A stretch of DNA of 64,000 nucleotides, taken from NCBI GenBank assembly GCA_001642945.1, contig LGRT01000010.1:1-64000 (forward strand), written 5' to 3'. The position numbers and the translations under genes were made by a program. Source of the stretch: Rhodobacteraceae bacterium SB2. GTDB lineage: Bacteria > Pseudomonadota > Alphaproteobacteria > Rhodobacterales > Rhodobacteraceae. Below the pieces are notes generated by a model. It had not been told where the DNA came from. It did no database searches and saw only the letters and a program-made list of their open reading frames with translations. Below, piece after piece: positions 18,799 to 26,230 of this stretch; the first letter of the stretch is position 1, and the number at the start of each line of letters is the position of its first letter.

Positions 18799-18945
18799 AC
18801 GTGCAGGCGATGTAACTTTGCTGATACGCGAATGCAAGCTTTAATCCGATCTCGAAGCGGCAAAAGTCAAAAATTCCAATCGCGATCGGCTTGCATAAAA
18901 TAAGGAGCGCAGGTAAAAAATGATCCGCATATAAGGAGAGGCCAC

Positions 18946-19143
18946 ATGGGCATCAATAAGCAATCCGATCTCGAAGCCAATTTGCAGATCGGGCCCACGG
19001 ATCGCGGTATGGTTCGCATTTATGTTGTTGGCGACGGCATCGAGATGCCTATGGATTTTGACCCGAGCGATGCGGAAGAAATCGCTGAGGAAATTATGGT
19101 GGCGGCAAAGGCCGCGCGCGGGCTTTCTGGTTCATCAAACTGA
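18946..19143 (+). CDS. Conserved small acidic protein of Rhodobacteraceae (DUF6324-like)
   Basis: A 65-residue soluble protein with a good ribosome binding site (AAGGAGAGG). The sequence EANLQIGPTDRGMVRIYV, then MPMDFDPSDAEEIAEEIM, matches what I remember as a short conserved roseobacter family (DUF6324). Function unknown. It converges on mmcB, four bases between stops. Confidence 0.7.
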   Translation: MGINKQSDLEANLQIGPTDRGMVRIYVVGDGIEMPMDFDPSDAEEIAEEIMVAAKAARGLSGSSN

Positions 19144-19147
19144 CATC

Positions 19148-19597
19148 TTAATATTGCGCCGCAGGATCGCGAAGAAGTGCCAGGCGCCGCGCTGCGCGCC
19201 GCGCAAACCGGTGAATGATAGATTTTCTACGCGCCGGGCTTAAGGTGCTTATGGGCGCGTCGCGCATCAGTTCAGCATCATAGCCATCTGCCCAAAACAC
19301 GCCTGTCTGCTCAGGCAAAATATCCACCGGAAAATCTGTTGGAACCGCCCAAAAATATTGGTCACACCAGGGCAAGTAATTCTGCCATTTCCCGTCAGAC
19401 ATAAAATCTTCTCGGCTCGATTTACACTCAATAATCCAAATTTCGCTTTTGGTGCCCAAAGCCAGAAGATCCACGCGCAAGCCCTTTATTGGGGGGAATT
19501 CTTCAAGGCTTACAAAGCCGAGCCCGGTTAAATGCCGCGCCATTCCCCTTGCCAGCAATTGACCCGTTTTTAATGTTTTCGCAGGTTGTAAATCCAT
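19148..19597 (-). CDS. mmcB: MmcB family DNA repair protein
   Basis: A 149-residue protein of the MmcB family, related to PD-(D/E)xK nucleases. The core is GLRVDLLALGTKSEIWIIEC KS, where the D, E and K positions of a restriction-like active site can be seen (RVDLLAL; IIECKSS), followed by DQYFWAVPTDFP. In Caulobacter mmcB is SOS-linked and tied to lesion processing. No obvious LexA box was found by eye upstream. Start ATG at 19597; the usual family length is about 150. Confidence 0.85.
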   Translation of the reverse strand: MDLQPAKTLKTGQLLARGMARHLTGLGFVSLEEFPPIKGLRVDLLALGTKSEIWIIECKSSREDFMSDGKWQNYLPWCDQYFWAVPTDFPVDILPEQTGVFWADGYDAELMRDAPISTLSPARRKSIIHRFARRAARRLALLRDPAAQY

Positions 19598-19707
19598 CTT
19601 GTGAAAGTGCGGTATCGGGTTTGACTAAGCAAGGTTTGATTGGTTTTATGGGCGAAATATTCACCAAATTATCGGGAAGCCTTGCCATTTTAAAGCGCAA
19701 GCACTAC

Positions 19708-19890
19708 GTGACAGTGAGGCGGGTTCTGTTCTTCGCGTCTACGGTTGCATTCCGGTGGCCTTAAGCAATTCCGAGGGAACTGGCTCTGTTTGAACCCTGG
19801 TTCATTTATCTGGTGCCCACCTGTACATACAGGTCCTCGGGAATGAGAGAACCCCACGGTTGCTACGGGCCCGCCACTTACTTTCTGTGT
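19708..19890 (+). ncRNA. ssrS: Probable 6S RNA
   Basis: No protein gene fits here, but the sequence forms a long irregular hairpin of 6S type. The closing arms are GTGAGGCGGG (19714-19723) with CCCGCCACTTAC (19870-19881). An inner arm pairs ATTCCGAGGGA (about 19769) with TCCTCGGGAAT (about 19833). Between them lies a large bubble and a terminal hairpin CACCTGTACATACAGG. The 3' part (GGTTGCTACGGGCCCGCC) resembles the end of known 6S RNAs. 6S RNA binds RNA polymerase with its main sigma factor and mimics an open promoter. Identified by eye; ends approximate. Confidence 0.6.
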
Positions 19891-20416
19891 TGCAGCGTAA
19901 ATCTGAAACCGCATCACGTCAAATAAGCACTGTCGTTATAGAGCCTTTTACAGCTTCAAACTGAGCCCGCGCGGAAAAGTAAGATGTTTGGGCGACGGCT
20001 CAAAAATGCCTGGGTTAGCTGTCCAACTAGGCCCTTATCGCAATCTGCATCTCTGGCTTAGCGTGAGCTCAAGCGCCATTAATCCAGGGCTAAAGTCAGC
20101 GTTGAGCAGATAACTGATAAAAACGCTCCATTAGGCGCTTAACCTTATGGGGTATTTAGAGTTCGGACGCGCGTTCCCTCTGATCTTTTGAGCGGTTATT
20201 ACTGGCCTAATAGTTTTCAGAATCCTAAATCATGCTTTGGATAGATTGTTAAGTTTTATAAGTGGCGCTGAGCAGATTATGCGCTCTATCTTTTGCATAT
20301 GTCTCAATTCCTTAAAAGGAATGCGCGCTTGCGGTTCCGGCAGTAGAGAAATGAAAAACGTAGATATTTCTGCTTCACATTCGCGAAAGACTTGTCTATT
20401 GCACGTGCGTATAAGT
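19891..20416. other. Gap upstream of tRNA-Leu, nothing recognised
   Basis: About 525 bases between the probable 6S RNA and tRNA-Leu. No gene-like frame, no further RNA. It presumably carries the tRNA promoter. Confidence 0.35.
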
Positions 20417-20503
20417 GCGGTCGTGGCGGAATTGGTAGACGCGCAGCGTTGAGGTCGCTGTTCTTTAACCGGAGTGGAAGTTCGAGTCTTCTCGACCGCA
20501 CCA
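20417..20503 (+). tRNA. tRNA-Leu (anticodon GAG)
   Basis: An 87-base class II tRNA: acceptor GCGGTCG with CGACCGC, anticodon stem CAGCG/CGCTG with loop TTGAGGT (GAG), a long variable arm (TTCTTTAACCGGA), T loop TTCGAGT and an encoded CCA. Reads CUC and CUU. It is followed after 57 bases by an integrase gene, the usual arrangement for a genomic island inserted at a tRNA 3' end. Confidence 0.95.
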
Positions 20504-20560
20504 TATTTTCAGTATAACTTATTGTAATTCCTTCGAGTTTAATCATCGAGGGAGACCGTC

Positions 20561-21100
20561 GTGTTGCACATTCCGTACACAATATGCCGATCAGGCACCT
20601 ATTATTATAACCGCCATGTACCTAAGCACGCAGTGGGCGCCTATGGTTCATTCATCAGGCAAGCCTTATCCAAATGCCCTGAAGAAGCTGAGGCTTATGT
20701 AAAACGTTTGGGTAATGTATTGGAGGGTTCTTGGAGTAATACGACCTCAATACAGCCTGTCGATATTCCAACCATTCTATCCAACTTCAAACCAAGATCC
20801 TTCGTTCTGTCAGAGATAGCTGAAGAATATTTGTCATTGCGAGCTATCGATGAGAAGCCACCTCGAGTGGCTCTGTCAGGCTTTATCTCCCTTGCTGGTG
20901 ATAGAGATGTAAGCCAGCACACACGACAGGATGCCAAGCTGTTTGTCCGTCATCTGGAAATCAAAGGGAACAAGACCGCCACGATTAGAAAACGTATCAA
21001 CAGTCTGTCTGCTATTCTGAACTATGCCTATGCAGAGCTGGACTTGGATAAGCGCAATCCATTCTCAAGGCTCTTTATCAAAGAAGCAGCCAGAGAATGA
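20561..21100 (+). pseudogene. Truncated tyrosine recombinase (integrase) N-terminal half
   Basis: A 179-residue reading from a GTG start preceded by GGGAG. It begins with the DUF6538-like strand pattern (ICRSGTYYYNRHVP) and continues through a core-binding domain (ETARQ-like helix QHTRQDAKLFVRHLEIKG; ATIRKRINSLSAILNYAYAEL). It stops at AARE just where the catalytic domain with its R-H-R-Y residues should begin; integrases of this type have about 350-420 residues. So it binds DNA at most and is catalytically dead. It sits next to tRNA-Leu, its probable target. Confidence 0.75.
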
Positions 21101-21171: not shown

Positions 21172-21194
21172 GGTTGCTTGCCGCACAAATGTTG

Positions 21195-22529
21195 TTAGTT
21201 TTTGGCCACCCAAATGTTACCTTCGTAATCTATTGCATTAAACGTATTGAGCGGTACCTGCTTCATCGACTTCATCATCTGAACGTTCTCTGGAGGCATA
21301 TCCTCTGGAAGCCCATCACACCATTTTTGAACACCACCGTCCTTGGTGCAATATGAAGTGCCATGGAACGGGCAGGTTATGTGGCCATTTTCGTCTATTT
21401 CCCCACCAGATAGGGGTAAATTCATATGAGTACAGGTATTTTGAACGGCCCTTACATCACCGTTGAATCTAAACAACAATACGTCATCACCGTCCAATTC
21501 GAATTCAATTTTATTTTCTTTTGACAGATCTTTGCTGGCACCTGCACGTGTCCATTTTATTCCATCCTTCACCAGTGCATCATGCTTTTTAGCGACTAGG
21601 CTTTCGCCTTTTACCGACTTAATTTCATACAAAGTAATTCTCTCACTAGTACCTTTAAGTTTCGTTCTAATGAAATCTTCCACCTCAACTCTATCTTGGA
21701 TTTGGTTATAGGCGTTTTCTGTAATAAGCATTGTCGTATCTGCTTCTTTGTTGGCACTTTCTGCTCTAGCAGCCATATTCACGGTATCACCAATGACGCT
21801 TAATCTTTCCGTGCCCCTGCAACCTAGCATTCCGATTATGGCTTCTCCAAAATGAATTCCAATTCGAATTTTGAATTCTTCATCAAAGTTTTCTTCGACG
21901 GTACTGGCAAAGTTTTTCAGGTCTGACTGCAATTCTAATCCAGCTTTTACAGCCCGAAATGTTTCATCGCCTTCACCATCAAGCCCAAATATTGCCAGAA
22001 ATGCATCACCAATATAATTATTAATTTCACCGCCATTTTTCATGACGATATTACCCGAAAAATCAAAATACTTGTTTAATAGATACATCACGTCAAACGA
22101 CGCTAGTCTCTCACTTAGTGGCGTAAAGTCCTCAATATCCGCAAATAAAATCGCAACTTGTTTGTTAGATCCAATTGAGCCAGATGATTGCATTGCTGCC
22201 TGTGCAAACTTTATATCTGCTTGGTTCTTAAATAACTTCCGTATTTTTGCGTCCCCACTTAATAGCGTTTGGCAAGCCAGGCGTACATCATCTGGGAAAT
22301 CAAGCTTGTCAGCTATAAGCTGTTCTTTCTGAGACCGCTCGGAACAATTTTCTAAGCCATTCAGGATTTGTACTCGACAGGTAGAGCATCGTCCGAGACC
22401 GCCGCAGACATGCAAGTGTTCAACTTGGTTTTCATTTGAAATTTCAAGAATGCTTTGGGCCTCTGAAAATTCAACTTCACGTTTTTCATCGGCATAAGTT
22501 AACTTTGGCATATTTTTCAAAGGCTCCAT
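21195..22529 (-). CDS. Ferredoxin - class III nucleotide cyclase - Rieske fusion protein
   Basis: A 444-residue soluble protein of three domains. Residues about 8-100 are a [2Fe-2S] ferredoxin with adrenodoxin-like spacing C42-x5-C48-x2-C51-x34-C86. Residues about 122-305 are a class III adenylate/guanylate cyclase: metal aspartates D131 (FADIEDFTPL) and D175 (NYIGDAFLAIFG), then IGDTVNMAAR with the transition-state N251 and R255. The usual adenine-reading lysine before IGD is asparagine here, so substrate choice is open. Residues about 325-440 are a Rieske domain with both ligand pairs, C366-T-H368 and C386-PF-H389. All cluster ligands are present. The likely job is to make cAMP or cGMP under redox control. 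Start may be M1 or M7. Confidence 0.88.
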   Translation of the reverse strand: MEPLKNMPKLTYADEKREVEFSEAQSILEISNENQVEHLHVCGGLGRCSTCRVQILNGLENCSERSQKEQLIADKLDFPDDVRLACQTLLSGDAKIRKLFKNQADIKFAQAAMQSSGSIGSNKQVAILFADIEDFTPLSERLASFDVMYLLNKYFDFSGNIVMKNGGEINNYIGDAFLAIFGLDGEGDETFRAVKAGLELQSDLKNFASTVEENFDEEFKIRIGIHFGEAIIGMLGCRGTERLSVIGDTVNMAARAESANKEADTTMLITENAYNQIQDRVEVEDFIRTKLKGTSERITLYEIKSVKGESLVAKKHDALVKDGIKWTRAGASKDLSKENKIEFELDGDDVLLFRFNGDVRAVQNTCTHMNLPLSGGEIDENGHITCPFHGTSYCTKDGGVQKWCDGLPEDMPPENVQMMKSMKQVPLNTFNAIDYEGNIWVAKN

Positions 22530-22701
22530 TTTTTATTATTATGGAACGCTCAGAAAGCATCGTAAAGACAAACTAACGTTTAACCTGTGCTCAACTCCGC
22601 CGAATGCTTACCGGAAATTTAATATTTTCATTAATTCTTACGATTTTCAAAAACTCATGTTAATCTTTCTGAGTTGTTAACCAGAAATAGGAGAGAGTAA
22701 C

Positions 22702-23070
22702 ATGTCGTCAATTGAGACAAAAGCATGGTCAAACCCTGATGAAGCGATGACACCCGACAAAACACATGCTGCAACTATTAAATTTGGACCAGTTAATATC
22801 ACGAAAGCAAATATGCAGCCGGGATGGAAATGGTCTGAGTGCATTAAACCTCATGTTGGAACTGACTCCTGTCAGGCCGGCCATATCGGCGTGCTTATGC
22901 AGGGGAAAATTCACGTAGTTTGCGACGATGGTTCCGAAGAGACAATCTCTGCGGGTAGCGCTTATAGAATTGCACCAGGTCATGATGCATGGGTTATAGG
23001 CGATGAGCCTGCTCTCGGCATTGAATTTTCAACTACAGAAAAAGAGTTTGCAGCTTGGACAAAGGGCTGA
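22702..23070 (+). CDS. Cupin domain protein
   Basis: A 122-residue single cupin. Cupin motif 1 is seen around GHIGVLMQGKIHVVCDDG and motif 2 around GSAYRIAPGHDAWVIGDEP. Metal ligands include the histidine in QAGHIGVLMQG and the one in PGHDAW. The N-terminal half (ANMQPGWKWSECIKP) resembles cupins that sit near regulators or small-molecule enzymes. AGGAGAG precedes the ATG. It is divergent from the cyclase fusion and followed by a methyltransferase after about 95 bases, so the pair may be co-transcribed. Confidence 0.8.
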   Translation: MSSIETKAWSNPDEAMTPDKTHAATIKFGPVNITKANMQPGWKWSECIKPHVGTDSCQAGHIGVLMQGKIHVVCDDGSEETISAGSAYRIAPGHDAWVIGDEPALGIEFSTTEKEFAAWTKG

Positions 23071-23164
23071 AGCAGTAAGATGCTATTTAATCAAGTGATG
23101 CTCAGCGCTTACAAATGCTGAGCGTTACTAAAATTCTATCAAAAACAAAAGGAGGGAAAATACG

Positions 23165-23965
23165 ATGAATGATTTTGCCGAATTGAAAGAGAAAGCAAAA
23201 AAAACATGGTCTGATTTTGCCTCTATGGAGAATTTCACCGGTGTCGCTGCACCGAAGCTCGTGCGGTTTGCAGGAGTTTTATCAGATAGCCGAGTTCTAG
23301 ATGTTGCCTGCGGTACCGGAGTAGCGGCTCTAACCGCAGCAAGGTCAGGCGCAAAAGTGACGGGAGCTGACTTAACGCCTGACTTGATAGCCCGAGCAAA
23401 TGAAAACAACAAAATCCTAGGGCTAGATATAGATTTTCATGAGGCAGACGTAGAAGACTTACCATTCCAAAATGAAAGCTTCGATATTGTTCTTAGTCAG
23501 TTTGGGCATATGTTTGCGCCTCGACCCAATGTCGCAATAAAAGAAATGTTACGAGTGCTGAGGCCTGGCGGAACAATAGCATTTTCAAGCTGGCCTCCAG
23601 AGTTGTTCATGGGGCAATTCTTTCAGATTAATGCTAAATATGGACCGCCGTTACCCGATGGCGCTGCAGCGCCAGTACAATGGGGGTCTGTCGAAACAAT
23701 CAAAGAGAGACTTCAAAATTTGGTTCATGATTTAACATTTGATCGTGATAAGCTTGAGATGCCGGGACTAAGCGTTGCACATATTCGTGCTAATTTTGAA
23801 AAGGGCGCAGGTCCTCTTAAGAGAATGGTAGAAGCTTTTGCTGAGGAACCAGAGAAGCTTTCAAGTCTACGAAATGAGATTGATGAGGCCATTTCTGAAT
23901 ATTTTGAAGATAACCTTTTACGCATGGACTTTCTAATGGCGAAGGGCAAAAAATTTAACCAGTAA
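23165..23965 (+). CDS. Class I SAM-dependent methyltransferase
   Basis: A 266-residue methyltransferase. Motif I is VLDVACGTGVAALTAA, the acidic turn after strand 2 is GADLTPDLI, and motif IV is FDIVLSQFGHMFAP, like the UbiE/Methyltransf_11 group. The middle part, with QFGHMFAPRPNVAIKEMLRVLRPGG, is typical of enzymes on small molecules, lipids or quinones. GGAGGGAAAATACG precedes the ATG. Substrate unknown; its neighbours (cupin, redox-linked cyclase) do not decide it. Confidence 0.85.
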   Translation: MNDFAELKEKAKKTWSDFASMENFTGVAAPKLVRFAGVLSDSRVLDVACGTGVAALTAARSGAKVTGADLTPDLIARANENNKILGLDIDFHEADVEDLPFQNESFDIVLSQFGHMFAPRPNVAIKEMLRVLRPGGTIAFSSWPPELFMGQFFQINAKYGPPLPDGAAAPVQWGSVETIKERLQNLVHDLTFDRDKLEMPGLSVAHIRANFEKGAGPLKRMVEAFAEEPEKLSSLRNEIDEAISEYFEDNLLRMDFLMAKGKKFNQ

Positions 23966-23988
23966 ATATTTGACGAAGAACAAATCTG

Positions 23989-24038
23989 GTTGACACACAC
24001 AGCTCCCCTCACTGTCAAAGTTTAAGTATATATAATGG
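23989..24038. repeat. Repeat A (about 50 bases), downstream of the methyltransferase
   Basis: GGTTGACACACAC..CAGCTCCCCTCACTGTC..AAG..ATATATAATGG recurs as repeat B at 26264-26315 with only a few differences and a two-base gap. It is followed by GC-rich inverted sequence (GCATGGGCCATGC at 24047). Each copy lies just 3' of a gene. Confidence 0.65.
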
Positions 24039-24150
24039 CCACAAGGGCATGGGCCATGCGGCGCCAACTACTGTTGACCAGTGAGGGCGTCACCTGCGTA
24101 GCCTGAAAACAAAGTTTTTATAAATTTTTTTGTAAAAACGTTTGGTTTTA

Positions 24151-24170
24151 CCTGACACACCCGACACCGA
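24151..24170. repeat. Direct repeat R1, second copy
   Basis: The 16-base sequence ACACACCCGACACCGA at 24155-24170 is identical to 21156-21171. It lies 26 bases beyond the 3' end of the sugar dehydrogenase gene. Confidence 0.7.
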
Positions 24171-24195
24171 TTACCCAACTTCTTATATGATTCAT

Positions 24196-25326
24196 TTACT
24201 CTTGTGCTTTGATAAACTTTATCAAGCGACCTGACCTGCCATCCTCCAAGGCCCAGATGGCACCATCGCTTCCAAGCTCCACGTCACGTACTCGTTGCGA
24301 CCAACTGAATCGCTCCGCTTCAACTGGTAGATCATTTTTGAACTCTATCCTTACGAGTGCTCTGCCCTTTAATCCTCCAAGGAAAGCATCCCCGTTCCAA
24401 TCCGGGAATTCATCCCCTTGATAAAAAAATAGGCCAGAAGGAGCTACTGTGGGAACCCAAAATAATTTTGGCTTTTGAAATTCTGGTCGAGTATCGTGCG
24501 TTGGGATAACTGCACCACTATAGTGGTTACCTTCCGACACTATCGGCCACCCATAGTTTGCTCCAGGAAGGATTAGATTCAGCTCATCGCCATGCTTCGG
24601 CCCCATTTCATGAGCCCAAAGTTCATTCTTATGATTAAATGCAATTCCTAGCGAGTTTCTGTGACCAATCGACCAAAATGTTTTTGCTAATTCTCCCTTG
24701 TCTTGGAAAGGATTATCGCCGGGTACGGATCCATCATCATTTAAACGAATAATCTTTCCTAATGCTTTATCCCAGTGTTGAGCGGGCGTTTGCTCTTGCC
24801 TATCGCCGGAAGTTATGAAGATTTTGCCTTCATGTTTACTTCCCTGTTGTCCCAAGGTGATTTTATGTGAGAAGTGACCTTTTCCAGATCTCGCCGGGGT
24901 TTGGTTCCAAACTGTTGTAATGTTTTCTAACTTTGGTGAATGTTTTATATTTAATTCTGCCCTAACCACAGTGGCGTATCGTGTATCGCCTGCGGTATCT
25001 GAGGAAATATAAGATATATAAATAAATTTATTTTGTTTGAAATTTGGGTGAGGAACAACGTCGCCTAAACCGCCTTGACCACCATACAAGACTTTGGGAA
25101 CGCTGGCGACTAAAGACTTTTCACCATTTGTATTAACCAGCCAAAGATCACCAGATTTTGTCGTAACTAGTAGTCGGTCAGGCGAAATAAAGGACATGGC
25201 CCAGGGGTTTTGAAACCGTTCAACTACACTCCCCTTTATTTTTGAGCCCTGATTTCCTTCAATAATGTTATTCGCCAGCGCATGTGTGGCTAAGCCCATC
25301 AAAGCAACATAAATTAGCAGCCGCAT
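24196..25326 (-). CDS. PQQ-dependent sugar dehydrogenase (aldose dehydrogenase, YliI-like)
   Basis: A 376-residue periplasmic protein with a clear signal peptide (MRLLIYVALMGLATHALA, cleaved near residue 18). It has the six-bladed propeller features of soluble PQQ sugar dehydrogenases: NPWAMSFI, GGQGGLGDVVPHPNF, RSGKGHFSHKI, GSVPGDNPF, the conserved WSIGHRNSLGIAF, HEMGPKHGDELNLI and PGANYGWPIVSEG. It oxidises aldoses in the periplasm with PQQ as cofactor. Length is normal for the family. No PQQ synthesis genes are in this window. Start at 25326 is supported by the signal peptide. Confidence 0.9.
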   Translation of the reverse strand: MRLLIYVALMGLATHALANNIIEGNQGSKIKGSVVERFQNPWAMSFISPDRLLVTTKSGDLWLVNTNGEKSLVASVPKVLYGGQGGLGDVVPHPNFKQNKFIYISYISSDTAGDTRYATVVRAELNIKHSPKLENITTVWNQTPARSGKGHFSHKITLGQQGSKHEGKIFITSGDRQEQTPAQHWDKALGKIIRLNDDGSVPGDNPFQDKGELAKTFWSIGHRNSLGIAFNHKNELWAHEMGPKHGDELNLILPGANYGWPIVSEGNHYSGAVIPTHDTRPEFQKPKLFWVPTVAPSGLFFYQGDEFPDWNGDAFLGGLKGRALVRIEFKNDLPVEAERFSWSQRVRDVELGSDGAIWALEDGRSGRLIKFIKAQE

Positions 25327-25600
25327 TTGTACTCCAATTTCAATATATCTACTTTAATTTGAAACTTAGATGCTTTTATGATCAACCCTAAATCCAAAAA
25401 GAATTAATATGAAACTCAAATGAAAATCCCTATTGATTAATATTTTTATTATGTTTCGCCTAAAAAAGGCGATTTGAAGAGTTTTGTCGGTCTCATTTAT
25501 TTAACTTTGATGAAATGACTTTGAGGTCTAGCCTAGTGATGTAGAATTTTGTGACCCAAAGTGTCACAAAGTGACCATACACAAAAAGGGAGGAAACGTT

Positions 25601-26230
25601 ATGGGTGAACCGAATTTTATTGTGATAACCGGAGCGACAAGCGACACCAACGATAGAGCAGGCTTAATGGGTGCAATGGGTGATTTCGCCCAAGAATGCA
25701 AAGACAATGGCGCCATGCGTATTACATACGGCAGCGTTCTAAGTGGCAAGCATCCAAACGCCTTAATATTTATTCAATTCTTTGAAAGCCTAGCAGGGTT
25801 TGAGAATGTGATGAAGGCCATTCCAAACTCAAAACCGTATGAGAGCATGATTAAGGATCATGCAACAAAACCTTTTGTTCGCAATGTTATGCAGAGCAAA
25901 GCAATACCCTTTGAACCTACGCTATCACCCATGCCGAACTATTTAGTTCTTACTCGAGCAAGGCCAAAGACTTTAAATGAGGCCGAAGTGATTAACTTAT
26001 TATCGTCCACCACTTCAACGTTTAAAGATCATGGGGCTCAAACATTAAGGTTTGGCCATACCGTGACAGGAAACGATATTGGGACTTATCTACTGGGCGT
26101 CACATATCCCTCAATGGCTGCAATTGAAGCAACATACACTGAGCTTGCAACCAATCAGGCCTTTGCCAAACTTTCTGCAGGTATTGATATTGATATGAGA
26201 TCGATAGTGAAAATTGCAGGTATACTTTAA
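25601..26230 (+). CDS. Two-repeat DUF6854-like protein
   Basis: A 209-residue soluble protein starting at the ATG at 25601, where GGGAGGAAACGTT provides a strong ribosome binding site (an upstream ATG at 25571 lacks one). It is built of two related halves: about 1-100 and 110-209, each starting with a strand (PNFIVITGATS; PNYLVLTRARP) and carrying YGSVLSGKHPNALIFIQFF or FGHTVTGNDIGTYLLGVTY. The design resembles dimeric ferredoxin-like barrels fused in tandem, as in the DUF6854 family I recall from marine proteobacteria. Function unknown; cytosolic. Confidence 0.65.
   Translation: MGEPNFIVITGATSDTNDRAGLMGAMGDFAQECKDNGAMRITYGSVLSGKHPNALIFIQFFESLAGFENVMKAIPNSKPYESMIKDHATKPFVRNVMQSKAIPFEPTLSPMPNYLVLTRARPKTLNEAEVINLLSSTTSTFKDHGAQTLRFGHTVTGNDIGTYLLGVTYPSMAAIEATYTELATNQAFAKLSAGIDIDMRSIVKIAGIL

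Follow-up and report, generated by a model that had tools for sequence, protein, structure and literature searches.

This locus raises the question of what controls a nucleotide cyclase that carries iron-sulfur domains on both sides of its catalytic core. The window (the whole stretch of 64,000 nucleotides that was analyzed) contains a single unbroken ORF on the minus strand, the 444-residue product of which matches the Pfam families Fer2 (E 1.6e-9), Guanylate_cyc (E 3.1e-25), and Rieske (E 9.5e-18), all above their gathering scores (Table 1). A sequence-only reading had described these three domains and named their key residues, and both descriptions were correct: C42, C48, C51, and C86 in the Fer2 domain, the metal aspartates D131 and D175 and the transition-state pair N251/R255 in the class III cyclase domain, and C366, H368, C386, and H389 in the Rieske domain.

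Table 1. Features of the cyclase locus and of its encoded protein, in window coordinates
Feature	Position	Strand	Evidence
tRNA-Leu(gag)	20417..20503	+	Synteny comparison with sister genomes
Truncated phage-type integrase, N-terminal part only	20561..21100	+	DUF6538 and SAM-like domain, both weak
Fer2-class III cyclase-Rieske protein, 444 aa	21195..22529	-	ORF; Pfam; orthologues; dN/dS 0.04
C-terminal Rieske domain, residues 325-403; C366-X-H368, C386-X2-H389	21321..21557	-	Pfam; BphF 1fqt, NdoA 2qpz
Class III nucleotide cyclase domain, residues 122-302	21624..22166	-	Pfam; CyaC, Cya2, CyaB folds
Helix 103-113, then low-confidence stretch 111-118, between Fer2 and cyclase	22191..22223	-	AF2 model
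N-terminal [2Fe-2S] Fer2 domain, residues 13-90	22260..22493	-	Pfam Fer2
Small cupin-like protein between cyclase and methyltransferase	22702..23070	+	Conserved in G002
Class I SAM methyltransferase, divergent neighbor of the cyclase	23165..23965	+	Homologues at relatives' loci
GSDH-family (PQQ-type) sugar dehydrogenase	24196..25326	-	Pfam; in block common to G002

The gene has a 99% identical orthologue in the sister genome G002 and a 93% identical one in the cultured Roseobacter strain HIMB11 (L062; genome described in PMC4148974), while G001 retains a 97% identical fragment at a contig end. Comparison with HIMB11 yielded a dN/dS of 0.041 overall (Fer2 0.046, cyclase 0.022, Rieske 0.041), with the cyclase domain as the slowest-evolving part. 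Purifying selection on the gene is thus strong, the Rieske part included, and together with the two orthologues this excludes a chance ORF. Alignment of 31 sequences showed no substitution of any of the four Fer2 cysteines or of the two metal aspartates, and the Rieske ligands were found in every row with an uncut, present Rieske domain, apart from one H389 that corresponds to an unread base. Ligands and catalytic residues were invariant in relatives down to 33-43% identity. The architecture, its intact ligands and catalytic residues, its long-term purifying selection, and its recurrence are therefore plain observations.

In the AF2 model of the protein (mean pLDDT 81, pTM 0.52), three domains are ordered, and the linkers between them, at about residues 111-118 and 310-316, have low confidence; at this pTM the contacts between domains are undefined. 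The segment at 103-118 lies where class IIIa/b cyclases have their transducer, and D105 and G120 at the junction of Fer2 and cyclase were invariant in the alignment. A transducer-like role for this segment may be proposed from its position.

The spacing of the Fer2 ligands (C42-X5-C48-X2-C51-X34-C86) is that of adrenodoxin and ISC-type ferredoxins; the TIGR02007 equivalog match was below cutoff and the nearest solved structures were 3ah7 and 9i2a. The Rieske domain has the CxH...CxxH ligands of its class and was most similar to ring-hydroxylating dioxygenase ferredoxins, all NCBIfam equivalog scores being far below cutoff. It shares fold and ligand pattern with BphF (1fqt), NdoA (2qpz), and HcaC; however, those proteins are ferredoxins, whereas this Rieske domain is the C-terminal domain of a cyclase. 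Its ligand boxes (CTHMNL and CPFHGT) are devoid of the second, disulfide-forming cysteine of the bc1/b6f type. This rules out quinone sensing by a quinol-oxidizing, bc1-type Rieske; of the signals suggested earlier, neither a quinone nor oxygen in particular was favored by any other observation. Binding of a [2Fe-2S] cluster by each type of domain would follow from the known families, as would cyclization by a class III dimer and control by way of the stretch that precedes the catalytic core. For the window protein, we infer cluster loading, dimerization, catalysis, product, and cluster control.

Next we analyzed how widespread this architecture is. At E 1e-46, full-length relatives were found in one of 385 genomes of the class besides the window's own (G294, locus L024) and in none of the 391 genomes sampled from the order. 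A scan of 84,980 species genomes retrieved, among the matches listed, at least about 28 full-length relatives with 38-43% identity, plus HIMB11 at 93%; this count is a lower bound, as the scan used a degenerate pattern of two short motifs. By their record titles, the carriers were SAR116, SAR324, MED-G08 and other Rhodobacteraceae, MarineAlpha2, HIMB11, and marine single cells. A tblastn search of plasmids added two megaplasmids, R. gallicum pRgalR602c and R. etli 8C-3 pRsp8C3c (33-34% identical), and the phylum sample added one alphaproteobacterium (L139, 37% identical). No relative was found among the viral contigs. The Rieske fusion had been expected to be rare, which holds for genomes at large, but numerous planktonic marine bacteria have it, as do plasmids of Rhizobium. 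A MED-G08-like copy (L071:7734-8801) has a frameshift or an assembly error in the cyclase domain, with the Rieske part in another frame.

Every marine relative with its 5' end on the contig, HIMB11 excepted, has at its N terminus CDGSH motifs that read CxCx2(S/T)x3PxCDxSH. Most have two copies, seven have four (L043, L048, L051, L057, L064, L065, and L073), L050 has three and a degenerate one, and L067 has one. This module matched the tandem type 6 CISD structure 3tbn (E 1e-23), and it resembles type 6 and type 5 CDGSH proteins, including human CISD3 (6avj). The motif CxCx2(S/T)x3PxCD(G)(S/T/A)H was absent from the proteins of the window, HIMB11, Rhizobium, and L139. Among 24 aligned members, Pfam detected Fer2 and cyclase in all, Rieske in 20, and zf-CDGSH in 19. 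One type of cyclase has thus been fused to three separate types of [2Fe-2S] domain, and the four-CDGSH chains are predicted to hold six [2Fe-2S] sites each. The only CDGSH protein of the window's genome (L123:91-1632, G000:C7) joins a tandem CDGSH to a glutamate synthase domain, a type 5 CISD in the classification of PMC3174974, and a CDGSH partner acting in trans is unsupported there. The fusion partners given in that classification include glutamate synthase in type 5 and DUF1271 in type 7; a cyclase, Rieske, or CDGSH-cyclase fusion is not mentioned.

Fer2-cyclases as such are common, in line with the sequence-only reading, which called such fusions known, and the window protein belongs among them. 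Soluble ones of about 300-330 residues (L140 and L141 of family f188, Hymenobacter WP_245126431.1, and L068 from Desulfobacca) were 36-41% identical to residues 8-308 of the window protein and had all of its ligands and catalytic residues, without Rieske or CDGSH domains. Membrane forms of 555-670 residues, frequent in Alphaproteobacteria, likewise have Fer2 followed by cyclase; however, they have about 250 hydrophobic N-terminal residues where the marine relatives have CDGSH, and no Rieske domain. What appears new here is the addition of Rieske and CDGSH. The CDGSH-Fer2-cyclase-Rieske family, or any Rieske-cyclase or CDGSH-cyclase fusion, was named in no paper of the open-access literature searched, and an earlier mention elsewhere is possible. 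A search for the same domain order had been proposed; the genomes searched showed that the order is not unique. A protein from Candidatus Eremiobacterota (L069:2086-4764) has a Fer2-cyclase with a long C-terminal region that includes a protein kinase domain.

In a tree built on the Fer2-cyclase core, all Fer2-cyclase-Rieske proteins and the Rieske-less L025 formed one clade (98/97), in which the window protein, with Fer2 directly N-terminal to the cyclase, was placed with HIMB11 as sister to the CDGSH clade (97/94). The CDGSH clade (99/97) was nested among the triple fusions, and the membrane-bound Fer2-cyclases were separate (100/100). The simplest reading of this topology would be a single gain of Rieske, a loss in L025, and a subsequent gain of CDGSH, although two separate gains of Rieske are possible. 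L025 is followed by a tyrosine recombinase gene. Copies from SAR324 and from Alphaproteobacteria were 58-66% identical, which suggests a possible transfer of the cyclase gene between phyla.

Mobility is also apparent around the gene in the window. Synteny with G001 and G002 ends at the 3' end of the tRNA-Leu gene (20503), and the region 18900-21100 holds this integration site and the truncated integrase; the sister genomes keep the site, and the block does not adjoin it there. The block (21179-25403) comprises the cyclase, the cupin-like, methyltransferase, and GSDH genes, and is 97/91% identical in G002, where it lies about 1.2 Mb from the tRNA-Leu site. HIMB11 has only the cyclase gene of the block. 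The adjoining tRNA-Leu and integrase remnant, the other location in G002, and the lone gene in HIMB11 therefore indicate that the cyclase is mobile, alone or with its neighbors. The sequence-only reading had placed the gene in an island with a cupin, a divergent methyltransferase, and a PQQ dehydrogenase, and this setting was borne out, the cupin assignment being a weak NCBIfam match only. A constant gene neighborhood was ruled out, as neighbors other than the methyltransferase recur only within close clades. A protein of 219 residues with two copies of DUF6854 (25571-26230) adjoins the block.

We infer that control by redox or cluster state is the best reading of this protein. On balance, we lean towards a soluble class III cyclase whose output would be set by the redox state or the integrity of its own [2Fe-2S] clusters. 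Such a protein would probably be a homodimer. The Fer2 domain just upstream of the catalytic domain would be the conserved input, because no relative, whether soluble or membrane-bound, lacks it, and its state would pass through the short helix and linker to the cyclase core, which is the entry point of input in other class III cyclases. Later additions would be the Rieske domain at the C terminus and, among the marine relatives, the tandem CDGSH at the N terminus; they may widen the range of sensing, or move electrons to and from the Fer2 domain. The cyclic nucleotide (most likely cAMP, possibly cGMP or another) would act through ordinary effectors of the cell. As the window's genome encodes 12 class III cyclases, this protein would be one input among many. 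No electron donor, phosphodiesterase, or effector is named by the genes of the cyclase neighborhood. Oxygen, a partner ferredoxin reductase, NO, and iron are all candidate signals. The idea that one chain, with as many as six [2Fe-2S] clusters in three unrelated folds, constitutes a multi-potential electron-relay sensor, writing redox state into a cyclic nucleotide, is more speculative, and we put it forward only tentatively.

Alternatively, the clusters could report iron-sulfur supply or damage (apo versus holo forms; NO, superoxide, or iron limitation) instead of a reversible potential, so that loss of a labile cluster would switch the cyclase. Predicted cluster numbers within the family range from two to six, a variation that is no harder to reconcile with a labile-cluster sensor than with an electron chain. 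Clusters of the CDGSH type are labile, and the carriers are mostly bacteria of the surface ocean, where iron is scarce. However, no isc/suf, iron-uptake, or NO genes were recurrently linked to the cyclase in the neighborhoods of its relatives. The Rhizobium copy does adjoin an ABC operon, but its NCBIfam matches were all sub-cutoff and the best were to 2-aminoethylphosphonate transporters, so that a link to iron transport was dropped. We regard a sensor of supply or damage as rather unlikely.

The catalytic domain has the Guanylate_cyc fold with the complete metal and transition-state residues and in the AF2 model matched CyaC (1wc0-1wc6), Cya2 (2w01), and CyaB (3r5g). The catalytic fold, the Asp pair, and the Asn/Arg pair are common to these class IIIb adenylyl and guanylyl cyclases, but their regulatory domains are different and the window protein has Asn (N171) at the Lys position that specifies the purine. 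Its partner, the Asp/Thr position, is S244, and the ATP-specific adenylyl cyclase signature (Lys with Asp/Thr) is thus absent; Ser or Thr at this position is as in class IIIb, and relatives combine Asn with Thr. Asn occupies the Lys position in the window protein, in all CDGSH members, and in three Rieske-less relatives, Leu, Ala, or Asp do so in others, and the membrane forms keep Lys. Replacement of the lysine is thus old and tolerated. With Asn, Leu, Ala, or Asp at this position, activity, substrate, and product are not readable from the sequence, and the assignment is kept at nucleotide cyclase with the product left open, in agreement with the earlier reading.

A product other than cAMP, namely cGMP or a pyrimidine cyclic nucleotide such as a Pycsar-like defense messenger, would be consistent with the Asn and Ser/Thr pair, with the location in a mobile block, and with the matches of PADLOC Pycsar cyclase models to the domain. 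Those matches reflect only the shared class III fold, however, and no Pycsar effector model matched the neighboring genes tested. In addition, Rv1900c of Mycobacterium is an adenylyl cyclase despite missing the canonical Lys, and a product of this kind seems improbable. The lost substrate-specifying lysine and the presence of at least two electron-transfer domains per chain would fit a protein that is chiefly an electron carrier or scaffold, with a weak or inactive, vestigial cyclase. This is still harder to credit, since neither the metal aspartates nor the Asn/Arg pair vary and no part of the chain evolves more slowly than the cyclase domain.

Several marine lineages, from two phyla by name, thus have in common a cyclase with more iron-sulfur sites than any other signaling enzyme known to us. 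Abundant oligotrophic marine bacteria are often credited with little signaling. If the clusters control the cyclase, as we favor, redox or iron-sulfur status would be tied directly to a second messenger in ocean bacteria. The domain order also occurs in organisms that can be grown, namely HIMB11 and, on plasmids, Rhizobium, and is therefore accessible to experiments now.

Finally, the methyltransferase recurs beside distant relatives of the cyclase. At L044, L047, and L058, a 58-62% identical methyltransferase is encoded divergently, about 1-2 kb or less from cyclases that are just 38-41% identical to that of the window. At E 1e-60 it was found in 7 of the 27 cyclase-carrying genomes (all at 1e-88 or better) versus 0 of 239 other genomes of the class. 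The carriers are partly inter-related, and the link is therefore suggestive and should not be read as a rate. It may extend beyond the Fer2-cyclase-Rieske family. Two other cyclase carriers have a homologue of the methyltransferase close to another, unrelated class III cyclase, the two genes being separated by one for a small EthD-like protein (L132:1486-3658 and L133:8-2292).
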